From a virus, in IMG/VR virus record IMGVR_UViG_3300044796_000197, positions 1-22,660 of that record: a DNA stretch of 22,660 nt. One strand, given 5' to 3'. The translations under genes and the position numbers were made by a program. Shown one piece after another: positions 1 through 14,564 of this stretch. Numbering within the stretch: position 1 is the stretch's first letter; every line of letters begins with the position of its first letter. The notes beneath the pieces were generated by a model that was not told the DNA's origin, did no database searches, and worked only from the letters and a program-made list of their open reading frames with translations.

Positions 1-2178
1 AACTTGGTCAAGGTCAGGTACTAAGCGTGGTGGCAAGAAACCAAGTGTCAGCGTGGCGTATTCAGGGTACGTATCAACGCGCACAATCTGTAGCAGCAAA
101 CTGTCTACGAAAGTGCCGAACCCTTGCAAGCCAACCATTAGGCCAGGTTTTAGCAGTGTCAGGTCGTATTCGGGGTACATAACAGTAATGGTGGTTTGGT
201 TTTGTTCGGTGTCGTTACCCAGTACATCAGCTTCGGCCACCGTGTAAGCCGTTGCCTGGTCGACCACGTTGCTGTCGCTAGGTCGGTCAAGTCGCGGGCC
301 GTACTGCGCAATGCTAGTCGGGTTGCTGTAGTTAACATAAATGCTGTCGGTATCCCCGCTTGGAACGCCCCCGGTAAAGTAGGCGTTATTGATTAAGTTT
401 TCAATGGTGGCAATAATAGTTACCTGGGTTAAGTCGTGGTCTTTAGTAAACGTAATGTCTGCAACAGTGTTGGCTTCTTTGAAGTACAGCGTGTCAGTGC
501 CAAGGTCAACATAGAAATACCAAGCGCTTGGTGACAGTTGCAGCACTGTTTGTATACCTTCGTAAATACTATTGGTATTGAATTCACAGCTAAGGCTTAG
601 GGTAGTCGGGGTAATTGTGCTGCTGTCATAAGTAATTAGGCCGCCACGGGCAATGTAGTCATTCATTATAGGTTCAAGAATGCCGGCTACCGGTTCAACA
701 GTCGTAAAGGTTGCGGTCGTACTTCCGGTACCACTAAAGGTTTCGAAGTATAGGTCACCGGTAATTGGGTAGTAGCCACCGCCACCGCCCCCACCGTAGC
801 TTTGGTAGTAGGCTGTGCCGTAAGAATAGACCGCTGTATTTTGGTAAGCAATTTGTATGCTGTCGCCAGGGTCAACTGTGACAGTGAAAAAGTACTCCGT
901 GCCTGACACGGTAATAAGTTCGGTAGGCAACGCAAACTGTACAACCGCTTCGCTAGGACAACTCACATACTGGGTTATTGAGCCTAGCAGTGTTTGCTGT
1001 CCAGGGTTGTTATAAATATTGATGGTCACATTTGCGTAACCCAAAAAAGCCAGGTTAAGGGCGCCCAGGTTGGTAGTCCCAGCCTGCCATGTCTGACCAA
1101 ACGCCTGAAAAGCTGCACCTTTACTATCGGCGTCAATAGTTCCAAACACATTTGAAGCCCCTTGTGCGACGTCAGACGTAAAGGTATATGGATAGCCCCG
1201 TAACATGAAGTTGTCTAGGTCTTGGCCGTTGCTATAGACCAGCATACTTATACTTTCGGCACCGCTGTCGCTGGTTGTAGCACCTCCAGAACCGTCACCA
1301 TTACCGCCATAACTTGCTTCCCAACGTTCTAATTCACCCTGAAAAACAACTTTGCCATTCGGGTGCCAGTAACCTACGTCATAGACAACTATTTGGTTAC
1401 CGTTCTGAATTAAGGCTTGCGGCCCGGTTCCTAGTGACACCATGGGGACTTGCCCCTCGTCGGTAAGCTGGTTTAAGTTTTCGTCAGTGAGTAAGTTGCC
1501 GCTTTCGTCAGTCAGGTCATTACCAGGTAAATATGGTGTGTCGGGTGAAACAGCACAGGTAATAGCTAAAGTGGTACCTGCCGTGTTAACATCTTGGCTC
1601 GTTTGGTATGGTGTAGTTACTTTTGGTAGACTGCCAATGAATTGACCCGCGGAGTTAAATACCTGGTAAATATAACGGTGCGGGACGTAAGCGGGGCCAG
1701 TATGCCACCATACCGTTATTTCAACACCATTCAAATTAACATTAGCGTCCGAAGGGTCATGCGTAGCACTAAAAGAAAAGTAGACGCCAAAGCCAGAACT
1801 GTTTATGTCGCTAGGTGACCAGCTTCCACCCCACAAGCTAGTCGAGTCACCAACTGTATAAGTTGCTACCGAACCGCCGGCGCCCCCGGCCATGCCAGTG
1901 CCTTTAGTTAAGTTAATGAAGGGGCCAGCAAGGTTGTTACCGTAAACATTATATTGCACCTGTATGCCGTCAATTACCGCGGTAGAAGGTATGCTAAAAC
2001 CAAAGTTACTAACTAGTAGTTCGTTAGTAGGGCTGCCGTCAAAGACATCTATAAAATAGCTAGCCGAAGCGTAGTTAGAAGAACCCGGTGCTTGGTAGGC
2101 GTAGCTAGGGTTTGTCCATGCTACTGGGCCGCCTTCGTCTACGGCCGAAGTTCCTAAGTATGGGCCTTCCGGTGACAT
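1..2178 (-). CDS. Tail baseplate hub / minor tail protein with carbohydrate-binding-like modules (partial, C-terminus off the left edge)
   Basis: This is an open frame of 726 codons from an ATG at 2178 to the window edge with no stop, so the C-terminus is missing. The start shares one base with the stop of the distal tail gene (TAATG). Residues 1-170 look like a beta jelly-roll. A run of three LTDE motifs lies near residues 222-243. A hub-like strand region around 255-288 ends in ELERWEASYGG. A second beta domain spans about 300-460 and is followed by seven consecutive glycines (462-468). From about 485 onward the sequence resembles the hub proteins of siphophages (the ReqiPepy6 Gp37-like type), with patterns such as ITYDSSTI, WYFYVDLGTD and a late LENLIN-like strand (IENLINNAYFTGG). 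The position after tape measure and distal tail genes fits a hub at the tail tip. Hub assignment is by context and general pattern. The beta modules are probably for adsorption, which is inference. Confidence 0.75.
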   Translation of the reverse strand, partial: MSPEGPYLGTSAVDEGGPVAWTNPSYAYQAPGSSNYASASYFIDVFDGSPTNELLVSNFGFSIPSTAVIDGIQVQYNVYGNNLAGPFINLTKGTGMAGGAGGSVATYTVGDSTSLWGGSWSPSDINSSGFGVYFSFSATHDPSDANVNLNGVEITVWWHTGPAYVPHRYIYQVFNSAGQFIGSLPKVTTPYQTSQDVNTAGTTLAITCAVSPDTPYLPGNDLTDESGNLLTDENLNQLTDEGQVPMVSLGTGPQALIQNGNQIVVYDVGYWHPNGKVVFQGELERWEASYGGNGDGSGGATTSDSGAESISMLVYSNGQDLDNFMLRGYPYTFTSDVAQGASNVFGTIDADSKGAAFQAFGQTWQAGTTNLGALNLAFLGYANVTINIYNNPGQQTLLGSITQYVSCPSEAVVQFALPTELITVSGTEYFFTVTVDPGDSIQIAYQNTAVYSYGTAYYQSYGGGGGGGYYPITGDLYFETFSGTGSTTATFTTVEPVAGILEPIMNDYIARGGLITYDSSTITPTTLSLSCEFNTNSIYEGIQTVLQLSPSAWYFYVDLGTDTLYFKEANTVADITFTKDHDLTQVTIIATIENLINNAYFTGGVPSGDTDSIYVNYSNPTSIAQYGPRLDRPSDSNVVDQATAYTVAEADVLGNDTEQNQTTITVMYPEYDLTLLKPGLMVGLQGFGTFVDSLLLQIVRVDTYPEYATLTLGFLPPRLVPDLDQV

Positions 2179-3374
2179 TAAGCGTACCCTTCATAGTAGA
2201 CACTACTAATAGTCACCGTGCGACTAGAAAAGCTGTCATTGTAATATAGCGTTTGTGCGCCGGGTGGGAATTCAGGAAAGGCGCCACTGAAGTTAACGTT
2301 GGCACCGTTTACCGTAACCGTCTTGCCGCCACAATCAATTACCAATACGTCACCGTCTGACCAGCTGCGGTTAACCGTAACGGCTTGGCCATTATTACTG
2401 TTACCAAATTGAACGTAGGCACTGCTACTTGGCAGCACACTGACGTCGTCTAAGTACCACGTGCCGGACGCCGGACTTGTTGAAGTAAAGTCAAGTTCCT
2501 GGGTTGTGCTAGTAGCTGTGAAGCTCAGGAAAACTTGCTGCCAGCTAGTTGTTAGCGTGGCATTTGTAGTCACGGCAGCGGCACCCATAGTTACTAGTTC
2601 ACCACCAGCATTGCCGCGAAGCCATGCTGTCACGTCATAGACTTGGCCCACAGTCAAACCGCTAACTTCCTGCAGTTCCCAGCCATAGTTGCCACCAGTT
2701 GCAGTGGAAGCGTTAATCATTTTCATGTCATAGGTGCCGCTGTGTGGCGACGTGGTAACGACTGAAGCCGTGCCGACACCGCCGCTAGACCATGGCGTTA
2801 GTGCGTCAGTTTCAAAGCCGGGGTTGGTAACTAAGTTAGTGCCACCAGTACTGGAACTGCCCAAGGTAATTGTTGTTATAGGCAACTGGTAAGGCGCAGT
2901 GCCTAAGAAAGTATAATTTGCGGTTAGTGGTAATGACGTTTGGTTAGAAGCTGACCAAGCACTTGTCGTGCCGGGCGCGTAGCCAAACGGGTTGTCACAA
3001 GTAAATTCAACTGCGAACTTGGCATACGTCAAACCGCCGGGCCGCTGAATAGTAGTTTTGGTAACGGTTCCGGTGTAGTTACGGGTTGTGCCGTTCCAGC
3101 CAATAACTAGCGGCAAGTCGTTGCCAATTAGGTAACCTTTGAATGTATCTATAAGAGCGTCTAGGCCGGTAAAGCTGCCGCCGTTCAATGTGCCGGAAAT
3201 AGTAATAATGCGATTCGGGTAAGCAATGAAGGGAATTTTACTAAAGTTGGCGTGGGCTAGTGGGTACTGCTTGGCGTCTATAGTCGGCAAGCTCATGTGG
3301 TCAATATTGTCAGTCAGAATACTGCTGGTCTGCAGGGAATTGCCGTTATAAGTAATGGTGGTTCCTGGGTTCAT
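2178..3374 (-). CDS. Distal tail protein (Dit) with inserted carbohydrate-binding module
   Basis: This 398-residue protein is the likely ring that joins the tail tube to the baseplate hub. Residues 1-140 fit the Dit N-terminal domain: a strand-rich start, IDAKQYPLAHANF, then IITISGTLNGG, and the typical FTCDNPFGYAPG ending. Residues about 180-315 form a module of the CBM4/9-like type, opening with NLVTNPGFETD and ending with GTWYLDDVSVLP, a common start and end of such jelly-rolls. The remaining C-terminal strands (from about 320) complete the usual second Dit domain, so the module sits inside or just before it. The start is supported by GGGGAG seven bases upstream of the ATG, and the gene begins three bases after the tape measure stop. 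Such 'evolved' Dits are known in Gram-positive siphophages and bind host sugars. Here the sugar specificity is unknown. Confidence 0.85.
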   Translation of the reverse strand: MNPGTTITYNGNSLQTSSILTDNIDHMSLPTIDAKQYPLAHANFSKIPFIAYPNRIITISGTLNGGSFTGLDALIDTFKGYLIGNDLPLVIGWNGTTRNYTGTVTKTTIQRPGGLTYAKFAVEFTCDNPFGYAPGTTSAWSASNQTSLPLTANYTFLGTAPYQLPITTITLGSSSTGGTNLVTNPGFETDALTPWSSGGVGTASVVTTSPHSGTYDMKMINASTATGGNYGWELQEVSGLTVGQVYDVTAWLRGNAGGELVTMGAAAVTTNATLTTSWQQVFLSFTATSTTQELDFTSTSPASGTWYLDDVSVLPSSSAYVQFGNSNNGQAVTVNRSWSDGDVLVIDCGGKTVTVNGANVNFSGAFPEFPPGAQTLYYNDSFSSRTVTISSVYYEGYA

Positions 3375-6074: not shown

Positions 6075-6429
6075 CCGGTGTAAGGGGTGGCTCACCCTGT
6101 TCAGTTTTCAGGGTAAGCAAGTAACGTTGGTCAACTGGGTTCATACGGGCGACCGTGTCAAACGTAATGTCGGCTACTTGGTCAGTACCGTACTCGCAAA
6201 TGTTCCAGTCCTTAATACGTGACAACAAAGCTTTTAGACCACGCACAACCCGGTTGGGGTCAAGGTCACTAAACGCTTCCAAGTCACCAACCATGTTAGG
6301 GCCAATGTCCAACATAACCCAACCCTGGTTTTCTTTTGGTACTTCTTTGCCTTCGTCGTCGACAGACGTGCTGGGCAAATAGAACTTCTTAATGTTCTGG
6401 TTGGTTGGTGGTGTGAATAGCTGTGGCAT
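6058..6429 (-). CDS. Tail assembly chaperone (gpG-like)
   Basis: This 123-residue protein lies between the tail tube and tape measure genes, the canonical site of tail assembly chaperones. It opens MPQLFTPPTNQNIKKFYLPS and has an acidic, helical middle (GDLEAFSDLDPNRVVRGLKALLSRIKDW) resembling the small chaperones that coat the tape measure during tail assembly. It ends EKKSS at the slippery A9 run. The start overlaps the tube stop as TAATG without an obvious ribosome binding site, so translational coupling is likely. Most ribosomes should make this short form; a fraction would frameshift into the downstream frame. The family is very divergent, so the call rests on position, size and the frameshift signal rather than on clear motifs. 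Confidence 0.85.
   Translation of the reverse strand: MPQLFTPPTNQNIKKFYLPSTSVDDEGKEVPKENQGWVMLDIGPNMVGDLEAFSDLDPNRVVRGLKALLSRIKDWNICEYGTDQVADITFDTVARMNPVDQRYLLTLKTEQGEPPLTPEKKSS
6066..6074 (-). promoter_or_regulatory. Programmed -1 ribosomal frameshift site (A9 slippery run)
   Basis: The coding strand reads GG followed by nine A and then GC. In the zero frame this is GAA AAA AAA AGC AGC TAA, giving the heptamer A-AAA-AAA three codons before the stop. A one-base backward slip enters the open frame ending at 5819. The coordinate arithmetic fits: the zero-frame stop has low base 6058, and the extension stop has low base 5819, one register apart in the -1 direction. I did not identify a clear stimulatory hairpin. 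Confidence 0.8.
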
Positions 6430-7844
6430 TATGCAATTGGGTTAATGGCATTAGTTACTGAAAGTAGGAAACCGGCGCTGCTAGAACTGCTATAGTTCGG
6501 GTGCATTTTAATGGTTTCGTAGTTGACGCTTTTAGCTTTTAGCTGTGGCAATGGGTTGTCAGGTACAGCTTGTGGAATTTCAATTTGGAACTGGTACTGG
6601 TTAGTTGCACCGGCATAATGGGTAATAATTATGGCCGTGTTTGTCAGCAACTTATATAGCTGAATGTCGTTAGTCAGGTCAAAGAATTTCTTAACTGTAC
6701 AGGACATATTGCCAGTAGTTCGAATTAAGCTAGCTGGGTCGGGCGAACCAAACCTTTGACTTCCGCTGTCTTTTTCAAAGTTGTTCATTAGTTCCCAGGT
6801 GCTTTCAAGTTCAACCTTTGTAACTGCGGCACTGGCTGCAGCAGTAAGGTTTGTACCGAACTGCCAAGTAGTATTGCTGGCCAGGAACGTGCTAAGTAGG
6901 TTGAAGCTAGGTGTAGCTGGTCGAAGGTACATGTAGTCACCGCTGACAAAGCCGGTAACGTTGGTAACCGTAGTAATTTGGGTCGCATTAACAATGGTTG
7001 CAATGGTTGCGTCAGTGTAGCTGCTGCCGCCCTGGTGGTAGAAGCGAATTAGATCGCCGACAACTAAGCCAGCTGTTGGTGTAGAAGTGTAGGCTGTTTC
7101 AAAAGTAACGGTGTATGGGTTGCTGCCAGTTGGTGTGGCTGAAAGCTGGGCGCCAATAAAGCTACCTAGTGCGCTGGCGCCGACTTTAACTTGCATTTCG
7201 TTCTTGTTCCAGCTGGGCTTCATATTGTCGAACATAACACCGAAGAAACGCTTAACGAAGTTGCCGGTTGAAATGTCCATAGTGTAGCTTTTGGTCGCTA
7301 CCGTGGTAGCTGTTGGCCCGGCTAGTGTGAATGGCCAAGTAGTAGAACCGGTTGTGAAAGCTGAAAAAGTAATGGTGCTGTCGCCAGTACCGCTAGCCTT
7401 GGTCAAAGTACCAGAAGCTGACGGTGCGCTAGGGCCAGTAACTATTAGGGTGGTGGCGCTAGCAATAGTAGCGGTGACGGTAAACGTAAAGCCGTTGTTA
7501 GTATAGGTTGCGCCGACAGTAGCGTTAGCGCTGGTACAGGTTATGGTGTAGGTAGTGACAGCTGTGCCGCGACTAAATAAACCGTCAAGGAAATAAGTAA
7601 GCGTGTTGGGTTCAGCAACAACGGTTACGTCACCCTTGTGGGTACGAAAACCTGGTAGTGTCTGAAAAGTCTCAAATGGTTGGCCGAAAATAGGGGTCTG
7701 GTCTTGAAGACTATAATCGGTCGTCATAGTTTCGTCTTGTAATAATGTCCAGTCGTCGGGTGTAACGGCTGTACCAATAGTAGTTTCGGGTGCTAAACCT
7801 AGATAGCCAAGGTTACCAACCCTTTCAAGGCCTTGTAATGCCAT
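6429..7844 (-). CDS. Tail tube (major tail) protein with inserted beta domains
   Basis: At 471 residues it is much longer than a minimal tail tube subunit of about 150-250. The N-terminus (NLGYLGLAPETTIGTAVTPD) and C-terminal part (QLYKLLTNTAIIITHYAG, FQIEIPQAVPDNPLPQLKAK) have the character of siphophage tube proteins that follow a tail terminator gene. Residues about 97-162 form a Thr-rich beta insertion (ATVGATYTNNGFTFTVTAT, LTKASGTGDSTITFS), and a second insertion covers about 225-310 (TAGLVVGDLIRFYHQGGS, FVSGDYMYLRPATPSF). The inserts would sit on the outside of the tube. The start is supported by AAGGAG eight bases upstream and a TAATG overlap with the preceding gene. A high-copy product is expected. 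Confidence 0.85.
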   Translation of the reverse strand: MALQGLERVGNLGYLGLAPETTIGTAVTPDDWTLLQDETMTTDYSLQDQTPIFGQPFETFQTLPGFRTHKGDVTVVAEPNTLTYFLDGLFSRGTAVTTYTITCTSANATVGATYTNNGFTFTVTATIASATTLIVTGPSAPSASGTLTKASGTGDSTITFSAFTTGSTTWPFTLAGPTATTVATKSYTMDISTGNFVKRFFGVMFDNMKPSWNKNEMQVKVGASALGSFIGAQLSATPTGSNPYTVTFETAYTSTPTAGLVVGDLIRFYHQGGSSYTDATIATIVNATQITTVTNVTGFVSGDYMYLRPATPSFNLLSTFLASNTTWQFGTNLTAAASAAVTKVELESTWELMNNFEKDSGSQRFGSPDPASLIRTTGNMSCTVKKFFDLTNDIQLYKLLTNTAIIITHYAGATNQYQFQIEIPQAVPDNPLPQLKAKSVNYETIKMHPNYSSSSSAGFLLSVTNAINPIA

Positions 7845-8701: not shown

Positions 8702-9199
8702 TTAAGCCCCCATTGTGCTGTCAATTTTAGCCCGCACGTCGGCTTCAATTACTTGTGTTACTAAACTTTCGACAGCCGCATTAACGCCAAGCATAGGACG
8801 GGCGGGTAAGTTCTTGCCGCGGCCAACACCAGGAACGACGCCGTCGCCTTTTTCACCGGTGCCTAGCTGGTTGTATGCAAAGTACTTAACGTGGTTGGAA
8901 ATAAACAAACTGACAGGGGTAATGTCATTATAAAAACCTTCCTGCATGGCACCGCTGCGCTGCAGTATTCCGCGACCTGGCCACTTTCGTATTTTTTCTT
9001 TTACGGTTGTGTCTTTTAATGCGCGCCAGCTACTGCCTAATGCTTCACCGGAACTGACAAAAACCGTTTCAGAATAATAACGAAGCAGGGCTGTACCCAG
9101 CGAAGTTAGGGCACCCGTAAAGTCGTGCAGACTGTCACCCAAAGCACCAAGTCGTGTTTGGGCGTCGTCTAAACCGGTGACTGTGACAGTTATTTGCAT
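8702..9199 (-). CDS. Virion morphogenesis / tail completion protein (Mu gpG-like)
   Basis: This 165-residue protein resembles the phage virion morphogenesis family (Mu gpG, P2 gpS, Pfam Phage_tail_S type). The visible family pattern is an amphipathic N-terminal region with LGALGDSLHDF, then SSGEALGSSWRALKDTTVKEK, the typical GILQRSGAMQEGF (compare 'L-x-x-S-G-x-L' in the family), SNHVKYFAYNQLGTG, and the late NLPARPMLGVN, equivalent to the conserved 'R-P-F-L-G' block. It likely acts at the head-tail or tail completion step. The start overlaps the connector stop as TAATG with GAGGAA upstream. Confidence 0.88.
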   Translation of the reverse strand: MQITVTVTGLDDAQTRLGALGDSLHDFTGALTSLGTALLRYYSETVFVSSGEALGSSWRALKDTTVKEKIRKWPGRGILQRSGAMQEGFYNDITPVSLFISNHVKYFAYNQLGTGEKGDGVVPGVGRGKNLPARPMLGVNAAVESLVTQVIEADVRAKIDSTMGA

Positions 9200-10170
9200 T
9201 AGTATTCCTCGTGTATTTTGAACTGTGGGCCGTAGTCACCACCTTCAGAAAGGGGTGTAGTGCTGGTTGTCTCGTCTGGCCAGCCGCCAACACCGTGGCC
9301 TTCTTCAACAGTTAGTTCAATAAAGTTAGCGTCTTCAAGTACGACAGTTCGGGTAACTAGGTCGTCCAAACTGGTGTGTTCACCGCCGCCATTACGTGCT
9401 TTGTTGGCCATATCACCACCATCTTTAGCCATTGCCGGGTTAACGCTTTGGTACATTTCGTGCTTCAGTTCACCGGCCGCAATGTTCTTAACAATTTGTA
9501 CTACTATAGGGTTAGTAGGAACCGGCAACGGGAAGTCATAAACCGGCAACAGTGCGCCGTTTAACTCTTTTTCGGCACTGTCGCGAAACTCAGCAATTAT
9601 GTCATTTGTGACGTTGGGCGAAGTAGTGAAGCCGGCCGCACGTCTAATTTGGTCAACACTAACATAGTGGACTACGCCACTTTGGACAGCCACGCTGTCG
9701 CTTAATTGTGTAGTTGCACCTGAACTGGGGTTGTAATAAAGGAACTTATACCATTCACCGGGTACGTTAGCGGTGTCGTTGTATAGTGTAGTAACTTGGC
9801 TACCGTCTATAGCCACTGTTGCTAGCAAGCTAAAGTTAGCGTCAGGTGGTTGTACGCCGTTGGCATAAATGTCTTCGGCACTATAAATTTGAATTTGGCT
9901 ACCGAACAGCATGTAGACTGGGTCATTTTCATTGTGTGGTTGCAAAGTGACACCAGTTAAAGGTAGGGAACTGGCCGCAGATGGTGAAGCTGCAGTTACT
10001 AATTCTGTGCTATTGCCGCCAGGTTGACCAACAAGTACCGGGCCTGCGCCAAAGTCCACAGTATTTTGAATGGGTAAACTACTTGCGCCAGCCGCAATGT
10101 CGACCGTCAAAGGCGACTGCTTTACTACGTTTAGCGACCCAAAGTTTTTGATTTTTAGCGTTTGTGACAT
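9199..10170 (-). CDS. Head-tail connector (gp6/gp36-like adaptor) with N-terminal beta domain
   Basis: This 323-residue protein combines two parts. Residues about 1-155 are strand-rich, with the pattern of a virion beta module (IAAGASSLPIQNTVDFGAG, LTGVTLQPHNENDPVY). Residues about 161-255 are helical and match adaptor proteins of the DUF1320/HK97 gp6 kind: VDQIRRAAGFTTSPNVTND, then EFRDSAEKELNGALLPVYD and IVVQIVKNIAAGELKHEMY, including the conserved early Ile-Arg and the late helix. The C-terminus is acidic and extended. Usual adaptors have about 100-150 residues, so the N-terminal module is an addition. AAGGAG lies five bases before the ATG. It sits upstream of the gpG-like gene, as expected for neck genes. 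Confidence 0.75.
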   Translation of the reverse strand: MSQTLKIKNFGSLNVVKQSPLTVDIAAGASSLPIQNTVDFGAGPVLVGQPGGNSTELVTAASPSAASSLPLTGVTLQPHNENDPVYMLFGSQIQIYSAEDIYANGVQPPDANFSLLATVAIDGSQVTTLYNDTANVPGEWYKFLYYNPSSGATTQLSDSVAVQSGVVHYVSVDQIRRAAGFTTSPNVTNDIIAEFRDSAEKELNGALLPVYDFPLPVPTNPIVVQIVKNIAAGELKHEMYQSVNPAMAKDGGDMANKARNGGGEHTSLDDLVTRTVVLEDANFIELTVEEGHGVGGWPDETTSTTPLSEGGDYGPQFKIHEEY

Positions 10171-10202: not shown

Positions 10203-10817
10203 TTACCGTAGGTACAATAGCCCGTCGTTTTCGTCTAAGAAAATTGGCTGACTTGGTGCTTGACCAATAATGCGTGACGTGGTTGTTTGCATAGCTCCCA
10301 ACATTCGTTGAATAGCACTGGTGGTAGACTGCAGCGCAGTCACATTATTTTGAATACGGCTTAGGGTTCCGTTCGTCTGGGTAGCGCCCCCAGTTATTCT
10401 TGACTTAGTTGGCTGGGTGGCAGTTAAACCAATGTCACTAATACGTGACTTGGTGGTCGTCGTTCGGGTATTGTTAATCTGAATTCGTGACTTGGTGGGT
10501 TGGGCAGTAGTGTAGCTATTTTGAATTCTACTTTTAGTGCCACTAGTTTGGGTTAAGTTTGGGTTCTGAATTCGTGACTTCGTTGGTTGCGTCGCTGTTT
10601 TGCTGCTTGTGACCCTGGACTTGGTAAGTTGGGTAGCGGTTTCGCTATTTTGTATACGTGACTTGGTGGGTTGTGTGGCACTTTCACCAGCGTTAGTTAT
10701 TCGGCTTTTAGTAACCTGGGTGTGTGTATAGCTATTTTGAATACGGCTTAGGGTTGTCTGCGTGGCAGTATTATTTTGGGTTTCGGGAATTAGTATTGTT
10801 AGCGTTTCACCGTACAT
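10203..10817 (-). CDS. TQ-x-T-K-S-R-I tandem repeat protein, long paralogue
   Basis: This 204-residue protein is made almost wholly of 12 tandem units of 12-15 residues after an N-terminal MYGETLTILIPETQNNT. The consensus unit is A-T-Q-P-T-K-S-R-I-Q-N-S-x-T; Ser-Arg-Ile/Val is the most constant part. The last two units are degenerate, and the C-terminus (QPIFLDENDGLLYLR) is a non-repeat cap. There is no signal peptide and no Cys. The regular length and alternating polar/hydrophobic pattern suggest a beta-solenoid or fibrous spike, but this is inference. The units use different synonymous codons, so selection acts on protein. It is translationally coupled (GGAG and TAATG) to the shorter paralogue upstream. 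No family assignment is made. Confidence 0.85.
   Translation of the reverse strand: MYGETLTILIPETQNNTATQTTLSRIQNSYTHTQVTKSRITNAGESATQPTKSRIQNSETATQLTKSRVTSSKTATQPTKSRIQNPNLTQTSGTKSRIQNSYTTAQPTKSRIQINNTRTTTTKSRISDIGLTATQPTKSRITGGATQTNGTLSRIQNNVTALQSTTSAIQRMLGAMQTTTSRIIGQAPSQPIFLDENDGLLYLR
10203..10817 (-). repeat. Twelve tandem coding repeats of about 42 bases
   Basis: The repeat units of the long paralogue are visible in DNA as a recurring block, for example CGTGACTTGGTGGGTTG (plus strand) near 10485 and 10655, with many synonymous variants elsewhere (ATACGTGAC, CTTGACTTAG, CTGGACTTGG). Units are in frame and 36-45 bases long. They are degenerate and contain no unique spacers, so this is not a CRISPR array. 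Confidence 0.85.
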
Positions 10818-11176
10818 TAGTACAACTCCAATTCATTGGTTTCGTTGTCTAGGTAAAGCGGCGTAGTTTGGGTTTGCTGCGCATTGCCCTGGGCCATATA
10901 AGCACCGCCCATATACGAACCGGCAAGTACACCGTTTTCTGGTTCTTCGACCGTAAAGAATAGTAGTATTCGTGAAGTGGTGCCTTGAATGGCTATCAAC
11001 CCGGCATTTTGAATTCGCGACCGGGTAGTGCCTTGCGGCTGCGTGTGGTTGTCGGTTACATAACTTTTGGTGGTCTGGGTGGTTGAAGCAAAGTTTTGTA
11101 TGGCAGACTGAACAGGCTGCGTCGCAGTGACGTTATGTATCCCAGGGATAACGATTGTAAGTGTTTCGCCATACAT
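10817..11176 (-). CDS. TQ-SRI repeat protein, short paralogue
   Basis: This 119-residue protein shares the start MYGETLTI-IP with the next gene and carries four degenerate repeat units of the same kind (ATQPVQSAIQN, TQTTKSYVTDNH, TQPQGTTRSRIQN, AIQGTTSRI) over residues about 17-70. The C-terminal 50 residues differ: FTVEEPENGVLAGSYMGGAY, a Gln-rich spacer and PLYLDNETNELELY. That ending resembles the PIFLDENDGLLYLR cap of the long paralogue, so both proteins have the same three-part plan: leader, repeats, cap. The pair most likely arose by duplication followed by expansion of the repeats in the downstream copy. Function is unknown; context suggests a virion component. The ribosome binding site is weak. 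Confidence 0.78.
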   Translation of the reverse strand: MYGETLTIVIPGIHNVTATQPVQSAIQNFASTTQTTKSYVTDNHTQPQGTTRSRIQNAGLIAIQGTTSRILLFFTVEEPENGVLAGSYMGGAYMAQGNAQQTQTTPLYLDNETNELELY

Positions 11177-11193: not shown

Positions 11194-11541
11194 CTAAACG
11201 TATTGCAGTACCTTCCAGGGGAAGTTACGACCTGTTCCGTATGTTTGTTTAATGGTGAACGAAAGCGAAGTTGCCCCAGTCAAGTCGTTACCAATAGGCA
11301 CGCTGACTTTAATAAGGTCATCTGTCAATTGCGCGCCATAAAATTGCTGGAAAAAGGCTACACGTTTTGTGCCGCCACTTAAAACGGTTTGGTAAGCGCG
11401 AAGCTCCAAAACGTCGCCGGCTGCCATGTTTACTGTGTCGACATGAAAGCTGTAAACGCCCGTGGCGCTGACGTCGCAAACGTCGCTTTCTGTACCTATG
11501 ACGGCCGACAATGTACCGTCGTTATATGCTGAAACTGCCAT
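11194..11541 (-). CDS. Conserved small virion-associated protein
   Basis: This 115-residue protein has the pattern of a small beta-sandwich found in many phage structural modules: MAVSAYNDGTLSAVIGTE, GVYSFHVDTVNMAAGDVLEL, then AFFQQFYGAQLTDDLIKVSV, SLSFTIKQTYGTGRNFPWKV. I recall similar proteins in metagenomic phages next to virion glycosidases, but cannot name a function. AAGGAG is nine bases upstream, and the ATG overlaps the preceding stop as TAATG. It follows the paralogue pair and probably belongs to the same virion sub-assembly. No catalytic motif is visible. Confidence 0.78.
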   Translation of the reverse strand: MAVSAYNDGTLSAVIGTESDVCDVSATGVYSFHVDTVNMAAGDVLELRAYQTVLSGGTKRVAFFQQFYGAQLTDDLIKVSVPIGNDLTGATSLSFTIKQTYGTGRNFPWKVLQYV

Positions 11542-12083
11542 TATATTACACTCCTTGTTGTTAATCCGACTATTGGAATATAGTCGCTTGTTGCTGTTGC
11601 TAAAGTCGCTGACGCTGGCAGTGGGTACGCCGTTGCCATTTGTGCTAGACCGGTCATTTTATCGTATGAAAGTGTACCGGTCGAACCTCTGTAAAGCGTT
11701 GCGGACGTGCTACTTTCGGCCACCGCAAAGTAATATGTGCCTGGCGATAGCTCTAGCCCGGTTACAGAAAATGACTGAATTGCCGAAGTGCCACTTTGCG
11801 CTGTGCCGCCGTTTGACCAAAGTTTCGTTCCGCCTAAACTGTATATTCCGACGTCTATATTGCCGGCTGCAGTCGCACCGTTAATTACGAACATTGAAAG
11901 CGGCTTAATATTCGTAAAGACTGCGAAGGGTAGAAATATTGCACGGTTAGCACTTGGAAACACTAGCGAGCTAATACCGCTACCAAACTGCTCGTTGTCT
12001 ATGTCTTCTAGGAAGTTACCTAAACATTCGGCTGACAGGGTGTGAATGGTTACTAATGGTTGAAGTTGGTTACGTGGCCACAT
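11541..12083 (-). CDS. Lectin-like beta-sandwich protein, paralogue 2 of a tandem pair
   Basis: This 180-residue protein aligns along its full length with the gene immediately upstream. Shared blocks include the N-terminal L-V-T/L-x-x-T-x-S-x-x-x-L-G region, AIF-PF, the GN-D-GIY block, then STAQ/GTAQ followed by the identical SGTSAIQSFSV, G-YY-A-A, and an ending of A-Q-M-A-x-A-x-x-L-P then IP-x-G-x-T-x-R-S-x-I. The fold looks like a beta jelly-roll of the kind in sugar-binding and virion decoration proteins. It starts at a TAATG overlap with AGGAGC nine bases upstream. A role in binding host polysaccharide next to the glycosidase is plausible, not shown. Confidence 0.82.
   Translation of the reverse strand: MWPRNQLQPLVTIHTLSAECLGNFLEDIDNEQFGSGISSLVFPSANRAIFLPFAVFTNIKPLSMFVINGATAAGNIDVGIYSLGGTKLWSNGGTAQSGTSAIQSFSVTGLELSPGTYYFAVAESSTSATLYRGSTGTLSYDKMTGLAQMATAYPLPASATLATATSDYIPIVGLTTRSVI
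11776..11806 (-). repeat. 31-base exact direct repeat, copy in paralogue 2
   Basis: This block is identical to 12318-12348 and codes for the SGTSAIQSF core shared by the two paralogues. It shows either recent duplication, gene conversion or very strong local constraint, because flanking codons differ much more. Confidence 0.9.
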
Positions 12084-12619
12084 TATATAAAGCTCCTATT
12101 CGTTGCCCCAATAAGGGGTATTAAAGTATTCGCAACACTGGCAAAGGTTACGGTCGAAGGTAGAGCAAAAGCTGAAGCCATTTGTGCCATACCCATAACT
12201 TGTAAGAATGGTGCAATGGTTGGCGACTGTGCAAACACAGTTGAAGTCGTATTGTCAAAAGCAAGTGCTAGGTAATACAAGCCGCTGTCAAGTTCTACTT
12301 GGGTGACGCTAAAACTTTGAATTGCCGAAGTGCCACTTTGCGCTGTGCTACCAGCAGAAGTTAGTTTTATGCCGTCCTGGGTGTAAATACCCATGTCGAC
12401 GTTGCCGCTAACAACAGTGCCGTTCATAAGGAACAGTGTGTTGTACTGCGTTTTCTTGGTAATTCGAAATGGCACGAATATAGCTAGGCTCCCTGTTGGC
12501 CACGCTGTGCTTGCCAAACCACCGGCTTTAGTTATTATTGAACCCAAACTAGCTTGGCTAAAAGTATTTAAGTGTACTAGGGGGTCGGGGAATAAACTGC
12601 GTGTTGGATAATCGCTCAT
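12083..12619 (-). CDS. Lectin-like beta-sandwich protein, paralogue 1 of a tandem pair
   Basis: I choose the ATG at 12619 (MSDYPTR, 178 residues), not the one six bases earlier at 12625. AAAGGA lies only two bases before the first ATG but eight before the second, and the second makes an ATGA overlap with the glycosidase stop TGA. The protein has a jelly-roll-like pattern: AIFVPFRITKKTQYNTLFLM, SGNVDMGIYTQDG, SGTSAIQSFSVTQVELDSG, YYLALAFDNTTSTVF. It is homologous to the next gene over its entire length. A 31-base stretch is identical in both copies (12318-12348 and 11776-11806). Probable virion surface or receptor-binding component, translated together with the glycosidase. Confidence 0.82.
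   Translation of the reverse strand: MSDYPTRSLFPDPLVHLNTFSQASLGSIITKAGGLASTAWPTGSLAIFVPFRITKKTQYNTLFLMNGTVVSGNVDMGIYTQDGIKLTSAGSTAQSGTSAIQSFSVTQVELDSGLYYLALAFDNTTSTVFAQSPTIAPFLQVMGMAQMASAFALPSTVTFASVANTLIPLIGATNRSFI
12318..12348 (-). repeat. 31-base exact direct repeat, copy in paralogue 1
   Basis: Partner of 11776-11806, about 540 bases apart, in the same reading frame and orientation within the tandem paralogue pair. Confidence 0.9.
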
Positions 12620-14166
12620 GTCCATAATCCTTTCATTGTATTAACTACTGTTCTAGCTGTTGGCGGTGCTTGGAACGGATTAAATGGGCAGTACGTCCAC
12701 CAACCCCAGTATTGTTCGTTCCCAAATTGGTCATTCGGCATATAGAAGTTGTCACTATTAGCGACGTTGCCAGAAGTACCCTGTGTCACACCGTCGTTGC
12801 TGCCGGTCGTTCCACCACCGCCGCCGGTTTTCCACCATTCGTCAAAGGCTTCAAAGTAAATTAGGCCGGCACAACGTGTTGGGTCAAAGGTCTCCCAAAG
12901 ACTACCACAGGCACTGGCTTGGGTTGCAAGGTCTAGCGCACTGGTTGTCTGATCCCAAGCGTCGACGCCAGTTTCAGTAATAATAAGTGGCTTGTTGTTG
13001 GTTGGGTTCCAGCTAGCAAAATAGTTTGGTGTACCTTCTATTGGGTCATTCCAGCCGCTACCAAGGTAGCTATTGGCACCGTGAAAGTCGAAGTTATTTA
13101 ACGTGCCGGCGTCTTCAACGGCAACAATACTGGCCATGTTCGGTATGTTTATGCCGGAACTAATGCCGACAATGTGGTTAGTGTCGCGTGACTTTATTGC
13201 GCCGGCCACACTATTAGCATAAGTCCACCACTTAGCAAGTGTCATACCGTAAGACGCAATGTTACCACTGTCGTTTGTTTCGTTACCGAATAAGTAGCCC
13301 ATTACTGCCGGGTGGTCGCCAAGCAAATCTACTACAGTAAGCATAGCTGTAGCTTGTTCGTTCTGGTACCATTCCGTTAATTGACTAGTGTTGTACGAAG
13401 AATAGAAATTGACATATATATCAATCATTGCATAAATACCATTGGCATAAAAGATATCCAGGGCTTTACGCCACTGCGCTATGTTGGCTTGACCCATAAC
13501 CCCCTGGGTCGCATTGCCAGGCGAGTAAGTGAAGTAACAGCGAATAGTATTGCCCCCCATGTTGTTTTTACCGAACTGTTCAGCGAACCATTGTACCTGT
13601 GAAAGGTTAGACATTGAGTCGTAAGTCAGGCCGGTGCTAGGGTTATAGCCTGGCGGTGTTGGCCCATAGTTTATGCCTTTTATGGTGAAGTCTTCCCAGG
13701 TTGTCGTGTTTGGTGCTAGGTACTGCAGTGAAAAGCTATCAGTGCCAAAAGTACCGTTGAAGCGCCACTGCGTAGGTGTTAAGCCGCCTATAACGTTCGA
13801 ACCTTGGTTTAGGGCGGCAGTGTTGCCAGTGACTGCATTTTCTATGTCAAACAAGTTCTTGGCAGTTACACCAGCTGCAATTTGGTCGCCAACGGTTATG
13901 GTACGAACGTTGCTGTTTTCCTGGGTGCGTTCTATTGTCCAGGTGTCGTTAGCTGTACCGGCGCCAATAGACACGCCAGTAACCCTAACTATTTCACAGT
14001 TATAAACACTGCTTTGTTGGTTTCTAGGCCACACCCAAGCATTGAATGGCGGTGTAGGGAATAGTTGCGACGTGCCGTTAGGAACTTCCCAGCTAGTGCC
14101 GGTCGTAGCCGGGCTCGGTGCCAATGCTATGGACGTATAACAAAGGTTAGCGTGGTCGTCAAACAT
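12616..14166 (-). CDS. Virion-associated glycoside hydrolase, clan GH-A type
   Basis: I choose the ATG at 14166 (516 residues): it has GGAG eight bases upstream and a TAATG overlap with the preceding stop, while the ATG three codons earlier lacks both. Residues 1-110 resemble the N-terminal module of phage virion proteins (FDDHANLCYTSIALAPSPAT, then CEIVRVTGVS, TIERTQENSN, AAGVTAKNLFDIE). Residues about 130-490 look like a TIM-barrel hydrolase: FTIKGINYGP, the helix-strand GGNTIRCYF, IYAMIDIYVNFY, then YLFGNETND with probable acid/base Glu296, and PLIITETGVDAW with probable nucleophile Glu398, then LIYFEAFDEWW. The Asn-Glu pair and second strand-end Glu are clan GH-A hallmarks (GH2, GH5, GH72 and others). 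It probably degrades host capsule or cell-wall glycan. The exact family is not decided, and virion location is inferred. Confidence 0.88.
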   Translation of the reverse strand: MFDDHANLCYTSIALAPSPATTGTSWEVPNGTSQLFPTPPFNAWVWPRNQQSSVYNCEIVRVTGVSIGAGTANDTWTIERTQENSNVRTITVGDQIAAGVTAKNLFDIENAVTGNTAALNQGSNVIGGLTPTQWRFNGTFGTDSFSLQYLAPNTTTWEDFTIKGINYGPTPPGYNPSTGLTYDSMSNLSQVQWFAEQFGKNNMGGNTIRCYFTYSPGNATQGVMGQANIAQWRKALDIFYANGIYAMIDIYVNFYSSYNTSQLTEWYQNEQATAMLTVVDLLGDHPAVMGYLFGNETNDSGNIASYGMTLAKWWTYANSVAGAIKSRDTNHIVGISSGINIPNMASIVAVEDAGTLNNFDFHGANSYLGSGWNDPIEGTPNYFASWNPTNNKPLIITETGVDAWDQTTSALDLATQASACGSLWETFDPTRCAGLIYFEAFDEWWKTGGGGGTTGSNDGVTQGTSGNVANSDNFYMPNDQFGNEQYWGWWTYCPFNPFQAPPTARTVVNTMKGLWT

Positions 14167-14564
14167 TATATGCACTCCATAACGTACTGCTGCTTCTGGC
14201 CGTTGTCGTCAGTGTATTCGTAGCCAAAGCCAAAAGTACGTTTATGAGTAACTAGGGCGCCTATTTCGTTCGTTCCTGAATTATAGGCATGTGTTCGTTC
14301 GTTCTTAATGTAATAAATTGGTTTGGCATTAGCTGGTACTTCTGCCCAGTTGACGTCGTAGCGGGCAAACGTGCCGTCTGCATTAGCTTCTTGGCATACT
14401 AAAGAAAACGTCAACATTTTGCCGTGTTCGTTACTTTCCAAGTGTGCTTTTATGTCGTGAAAGGCATTGCGGCTAGCGTCTTTAATACTTACGTCGTCTT
14501 GACCGCTGACGTACTTGTGACCGTCTTCGTAAGTTGCTTCTAAACTGTATTTTAGTTGAGACAT
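14166..14564 (-). CDS. Hypothetical protein upstream of the virion glycosidase
   Basis: This 132-residue protein has an N-terminal part (SLEATYEDGHKYVSGQDDVS, then SRNAFHDIKAHLESNEHGKM) of strand-helix character and a C-terminal part of strands (AKPIYYIKNERTHAY, THKRTFGFGYEYTDDNG). I recognise no family. It has no signal peptide or membrane segment and is more charged than its beta-rich neighbours, including several His and Glu. AAAGGC precedes the ATG by six bases, and its stop overlaps the glycosidase start. Because it is coupled to the hydrolase it may help its folding or incorporation, which is only a guess. Confidence 0.72.
   Translation of the reverse strand: MSQLKYSLEATYEDGHKYVSGQDDVSIKDASRNAFHDIKAHLESNEHGKMLTFSLVCQEANADGTFARYDVNWAEVPANAKPIYYIKNERTHAYNSGTNEIGALVTHKRTFGFGYEYTDDNGQKQQYVMECI

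Follow-up and report, generated by a model that had tools for sequence, protein, structure and literature searches.

A cationic 14-15-residue repeat shared by two neighbouring phage proteins and a widespread family in uncultured viruses

The stretch of DNA analysed here (the window, whose 22,660 bases make up an entire virus record) encodes two neighbouring proteins, P1 and P2, which are built from a short cationic repeat. From the searches described below, this repeat defines a large, widespread, unnamed and uncurated family in uncultured viruses, referred to here as REP, which is not peculiar to the phage of the window. We consider it somewhat probable that P1 and P2 are short members of a family of virion adhesion-module proteins of uncultured tailed phages, in which the repeat array would act as a cationic stalk or tether capturing anionic surface polymers.

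P1 (204 aa; 10203..10817, minus strand) consists of a leader, a 12-unit cationic array (about 10266-10769) and a C-terminal cap (about 10206-10256). P2 (119 aa; 10817..11176, minus strand) is a degenerate paralogue with the same leader, four units (about 10964-11128) and a longer C-terminal part, and its ORF shares a single base with that of P1 (TAATG). Both proteins start with MYGETLTI, and their C-terminal caps combine acidic residues or Asn with hydrophobic residues (PIFLDENDGLLYLR, PLYLDNETNELELY). In P1, 12 S[RA][IV] motifs were found at spacings of 14, 15, 14, 14, 15, 14, 14, 15, 14, 14 and 14 residues; SRI occurs 11 times in the array, compared to a mean of 0.28 and a maximum of 3 in shuffled sequences, and the lag-identity peaks at 14, 29 and 43 include an observed peak that was reached by none of 2000 shuffles. 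The regular 12-unit repeat of the original prediction was therefore borne out, while its period of 14 residues had to be corrected to 14-15 (mean 14.3); the additional residue falls in one and the same loop each time.

For P2, the four motifs are spaced 14, 15 and 15 residues apart (a count of 4 against a shuffle maximum of 2), and its own lag periodicity was not above chance, being reached by 28% of shuffles. The alignment of P2 with P1 scored 149 against a shuffle maximum of 69, and 128 against 67 when the leader was left out, with 47% identity over residues 1-81, which confirmed the proposed four-unit paralogue sharing a leader and a cap with the longer protein. Against a REP profile built without it, P1 scored 75.9 bits (E 7e-23), with 500 shuffles at or below 16 bits; P2 alone was not significant against the family profile (E 0.62), and its membership of the family follows from its homology to P1.

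To see how far the family extends, a degenerate DNA pattern was used that covers a pair of consecutive units at a spacing of 14 residues. In IMG/VR, 52 stretches matched this pattern. Long arrays account for about 47 of these; the proteins that contain them are roughly 300-1850 residues long and reach about 50 units. Among bacterial and archaeal genomes (257 Gb), there were 28 matching stretches, only two of which were real by profile (L074 and L060), both in phage regions. When tblastn was used with P1 and P2 in phage genomes (50,697 for P1), no relative was found, and a search with back-translated P1 and P2 proteins in viral contigs gave no match; these negative results can be explained by low complexity and divergence. 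There was no match to the repeat in Pfam, the PDB or GenBank phages, none to P1 in the PDB, and nothing at E up to 5 for the array profile against all PDB chains, and a literature search found no paper describing the repeat. Long arrays also gave Pfam matches, EzrA and HD_3 among them, which lay below the curated cut-offs and were rejected as composition noise. The only significant PHROGs match of P1 was to phrog_28838 (E 2e-7, residues 14-170), a family of 661 positions and unknown function; this likeness may reflect common composition, as tblastn finds no relative in 50,697 phage genomes. The earlier statement that no named phage family with this plan is known thus stands as far as Pfam and the PDB are concerned, although the plan itself is widespread in uncultured viruses, and the profile search that had been proposed found the family in metagenomic phages with no match to a solved structure.

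The consensus of 552 units is [KQR]-T-Q-[TSP]-[AGS]-[VITK]-[AS]-R-I-x-x-x-x-[TS], in which Q3, R8, I9 and T2 are conserved at 85-99%, the first three being nearly invariant. Additional residues are confined to the variable loop that follows I9 (4-6 residues), giving family-wide unit spacings of 14 (1032 cases), 15 (69) and 16 (59). The units of P1 are nearly saturated at synonymous sites, with a pN/pS of 0.48 in the core and 0.78 in the loop, and over the arrays tested the conserved core had a pN/pS of 0.35-0.61, compared to 0.59-0.87 at other positions, and almost all of these arrays approached saturation at their synonymous sites. A motif kept at such synonymous divergence is old and under purifying selection, and is not the product of recent DNA slippage. 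It is therefore very improbable that the repeats are low-complexity sequence that arose by recent duplication of DNA and has no independent function. The array of L025, a 166.6-kb phage contig, would agree with such an origin, as its nearly identical 15-residue units with low synonymous divergence indicate a recent expansion; however, it is unlike the other arrays, since P1 and all others tested are saturated or near-saturated at synonymous sites with the core motif kept, and the Ser and Arg codons of the repeats are drawn from both codon families.

The arrays are also set apart by their charge. Their median is +0.14 per residue (+2 per 14 residues), compared to -0.02 for 738 other ORFs of the same loci, and acidic residues (Asp/Glu) make up 0.5% of the arrays and 10.7% of the other ORFs; only 3 of the 738 other proteins are as positive as the arrays. 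In P1, the array contains 22 Lys/Arg and 3 Asp/Glu, and the calculated pI of the protein is 11.2. From this positive charge, binding of anionic polymers is a natural inference.

The window encodes a portal, a Mu-F-like protein, a capsid protein (phrog_1005), neck genes, a tape-measure protein, Dit and a hub-like ORF. P1 and P2 lie within this virion structural gene block, among head, connector, tail tube, tape measure, Dit and hub genes, and more exactly between an adhesion-like block and a connector gene; the first reading of the sequence had placed them next to virion genes. The head-tail connector-like gene directly downstream (9199..10170, minus strand; weak Gp36 and adaptor matches) has a 52% identical homologue at the same place in L014/L088. 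Further downstream are Dit (2178..3374, minus strand; phrog_33, E 1e-14) and an open, tail-hub-like ORF of 726 aa (1..2178, minus strand), which runs off the left contig end; a tail hub gene usually sits after Dit. The hub-like ORF has an N-terminal domain of about 160 aa at the place where a relative, L120, has repeat arrays. The tail-tube-like protein (6429-7844, minus strand) contains an inserted module around 'SASGTLTKASGTGDSTITFSAF' that is common with a relative of C0 in L008 (48%, 121 aa), which suggests, from this likeness, a mobile insert among unrelated virion proteins.

Directly upstream of P1 and P2 is a 115-aa gene (11194..11541, minus strand) that is 62% identical in the syntenic relative, followed by two 180-aa paralogues (11541..12083 and 12083..12625, both minus strand), which are kept in a fully syntenic relative (L038, L088). 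Beyond these, a gene at 12616..14175 (minus strand) was shown by profile matches to combine a tail-fibre-type N-terminal domain (phrog_8469) with a GH5-like glycosidase domain, and its product could possibly be a depolymerase. P1 and P2 themselves carry no domain, including a receptor-binding or enzyme head, that was recognised by Pfam or PHROGs. The position of P1 and P2 between capsid and connector genes would also fit attachment to the head or neck instead of the tail.

Two further genes of the window, C1 (14166..14564, minus strand; 'GYEYTDDNGQKQQ') and C0 (14612..15103, minus strand; 'TEYNGA...'), adjoin each other and form a conserved cassette with the repeat genes, the array gene coming after both of them in nearly all relatives. 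C0 is 55-68% identical in the nearest relatives, and C1 is upstream of the repeat genes in most relatives: it was found at most six genes upstream of the array in 42 of the 47 array loci with enough sequence, and directly adjacent to it in 24 of the 42 (some contigs being counted twice). The window has the order C0-C1-(0-5 genes)-REP, with four further genes between C1 and P2. When the search was started from C0, 25 viral loci were fetched, and an array was present downstream in most of those whose sequence reached far enough. In L114-L119, C0 and C1 are present with no repeat gene within the available sequence, and genes of 228 and 233 aa are in its place. C0 had no Pfam match, C0, C1 and the hub region had no match in the PDB, and C0 and C1 had no relative among GenBank phages; C1 weakly matched phrog_11178 in 3 of 27 members. 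The backgrounds in which the cassette occurs differ: it accompanies siphovirus-type neck and tape-measure genes in some phages and podovirus-type tail genes in others, and it is also present in a 209-kb phage.

The gene order of the window, from C0 through the connector gene, is reproduced exactly in a 37.7-kb contig, in which C0, C1, homologues of the two 180-aa paralogues and the 115-aa gene are followed by a 482-aa repeat protein (L088 3735-5180) and then the connector gene. This repeat protein has 28 units, the leader FGENYLLI and the cap DDNDHIYL. At the equivalent position in L103, only an 85-residue remnant of about two units is present. Arrays at one genomic position thus contain anywhere between about 2 and 30 units, which is the variation that a length rule requires, and it is plausible that the length of the array sets the length of the fibre.

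In other relatives, the arrays are fused to domains of the host-attachment apparatus. In L120, the arrays of a 1484-aa repeat protein lie N-terminal to a fused region homologous to the hub-like ORF of the window (1-2178); this C-terminal part of the protein is 46% identical to the ORF over 242 aa, and a second block is 40% identical. The L006 array is preceded by the end of a GH5-like domain, which is homologous to the GH5-like gene of the window; the C-terminal stretch of that gene is in turn homologous to the N-terminus of the L006 repeat protein. A sialidase-like region lies between the arrays in L089 and in a Blastocatellia contig (G754), with a Pfam BNR match below the cut-off. L008 has a minor-tail-protein match at its N-terminus, L009 and L017 have near-threshold Ig matches, and L103 encodes a protein matching phrog_8469 between C0 and C1. 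These fusions and neighbours of REP are the setting of a host-attachment module, so that the context, at least, speaks for the structural fibre or binder originally suggested.

These fusions also bear on what an array could bind. The pI of P1, its near lack of acidic residues and the adjacent head genes could all be expected of an internal virion or intracellular protein that condenses DNA or RNA by its positive charge. However, we regard this as unlikely, because the domains to which arrays are fused in relatives (glycosidase-like, sialidase-like, tail-hub) work extracellularly. Of the nucleic acid or polysaccharide binding proposed earlier, the polysaccharide part is therefore favoured, with the fusions pointing outwards, to surface polymers, and the RNA or DNA part is less likely.

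The genes for phage receptor-binding tail fibres and adhesion modules, like those for REP, belong to the virion block; relatives of REP bear enzyme or binding domains, one is fused to the hub, and the GH5-like neighbour in the window has the N-terminal domain of a PHROG tail fiber family (phrog_8469). Unlike these fibres, the REP repeat matches no tail-fibre family, P1 and P2 are without a recognisable binding head, and in positive charge the arrays greatly exceed the other proteins encoded at their loci. Gly-X-Y triplets, by which collagen-like phage fibres are known, are absent from the P1 sequence. In the triple beta-spiral shafts of the adenovirus fibre and reovirus sigma-1, a beta-type repeat of about 15 residues is used, and the number of units sets the length. 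The 14-15-residue repeat of REP is similar in this respect, but its profile matches no solved chain, and to our knowledge strong positive charge and invariant Gln and Arg are not features of such shafts.

Short regular repeats with Gln/Thr ladders are also found in beta-solenoids, such as curli CsgA, antifreeze proteins and RTX, although the period of curli is about 22. A monomeric beta-solenoid with one coil per one or two units could account for the regular 14-residue period, the conserved Gln/Thr/Ile ladder and the restriction of insertions to one loop. The solenoid that had been suggested was not predicted by AlphaFold2, which gave a pLDDT of 40 for P1 (31 rows) and 39 for a 98-residue stretch of the syntenic relative (52 rows), and there was no profile match to solved solenoids. 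As AlphaFold2 tends towards confident but false beta-solenoids for repeats (PMC11795689), its failure here speaks against a simple monomeric solenoid, which we consider doubtful.

The same two low pLDDT values, one from a run with a 52-row alignment, together with the Thr/Ser/Gln/Lys-rich composition and the variable unit number, are what would be seen if the array were an intrinsically flexible, mostly disordered polycationic tether, a brush or glue whose action depends on nothing but its length and charge. These models are compatible with a largely disordered chain, and we give this explanation about one chance in four. However, the 85-99% conservation of Q3, R8, I9 and T2 and the confinement of length change to one loop exceed the needs of a tether, and the low-confidence models still put one weak strand in each unit. 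Both runs were of the monomer only, which cannot separate a trimeric fibre from a flexible chain.

The two cellular copies of the repeat give some indication of the hosts. One (L074) is in a Saccharibacteria MAG, on a 76-kb contig with Sua5, NUDIX, RRM and sigma-factor proteins at one end and tRNA-Asn and SmpB at the other. With chromosomal genes at both ends, this copy, on G001:C23 (L121, L089, L122), is most simply explained as an integrated prophage, probably in a Saccharibacteria chromosome; its tRNA-Asn/smpB end is a possible attachment site. In a second genome of the Saccharibacteria class (G629), C0, C1 and a 1484-residue repeat protein are present on a 43-kb contig with an integrase. 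On our reading, at least some REP phages infect Saccharibacteria. The other copy (L060) is in a Blastocatellia MAG, on a 36.7-kb contig that is phage-like throughout, which leaves its host uncertain. This contig, G754:C266 (L125, L126), has several sugar- and methyltransferase-like genes upstream of C0-C1-REP, and a sialidase-like insert similar to the one in the Saccharibacteria prophage. When 380 genomes of the Saccharibacteria phylum were searched with the array profile, the known copy was the only match, and C0 gave no further carriers in 346 genomes of an actinobacterial class or in 162 of the Blastocatellia class.

Returning to the adhesion module that we favour, the array would form a stalk or tether of beta type, extended, rich in Thr and strongly cationic, whose length could change as units are gained or lost. 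For most relatives, the array would carry or space carbohydrate-binding or enzyme domains, or join the tail hub. In the phage of the window, the arrays would stand alone beside a separate GH5-like fibre and are probably attached through their common leader or cap. Their likely job would be to provide reach and multivalent electrostatic capture of anionic host-surface polymers, followed by specific binding. A broader proposal is that an undescribed repeat fold forms polycationic adhesion fibres of adjustable length, encoded in a C0-C1-REP cassette that is passed between phages of different tail types and gives a large group of uncultured phages, including those of the epibiont Saccharibacteria, a general means of attachment; this we put forward only tentatively.

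What is known of the phages of Patescibacteria and of other uncultured bacteria comes almost entirely from metagenomes, and their mode of attachment is unknown. C0-C1-REP is a recognisable, probable attachment cassette that was missed by searches of 50,697 GenBank phages and by current family libraries, and REP is an unsolved repeat with a simple consensus. The series of array lengths at one genomic position offers natural material on how repeat number relates to fibre reach. As all cellular matches in this sample were in phage regions, the cassette may also serve as a sequence marker for its phage group.
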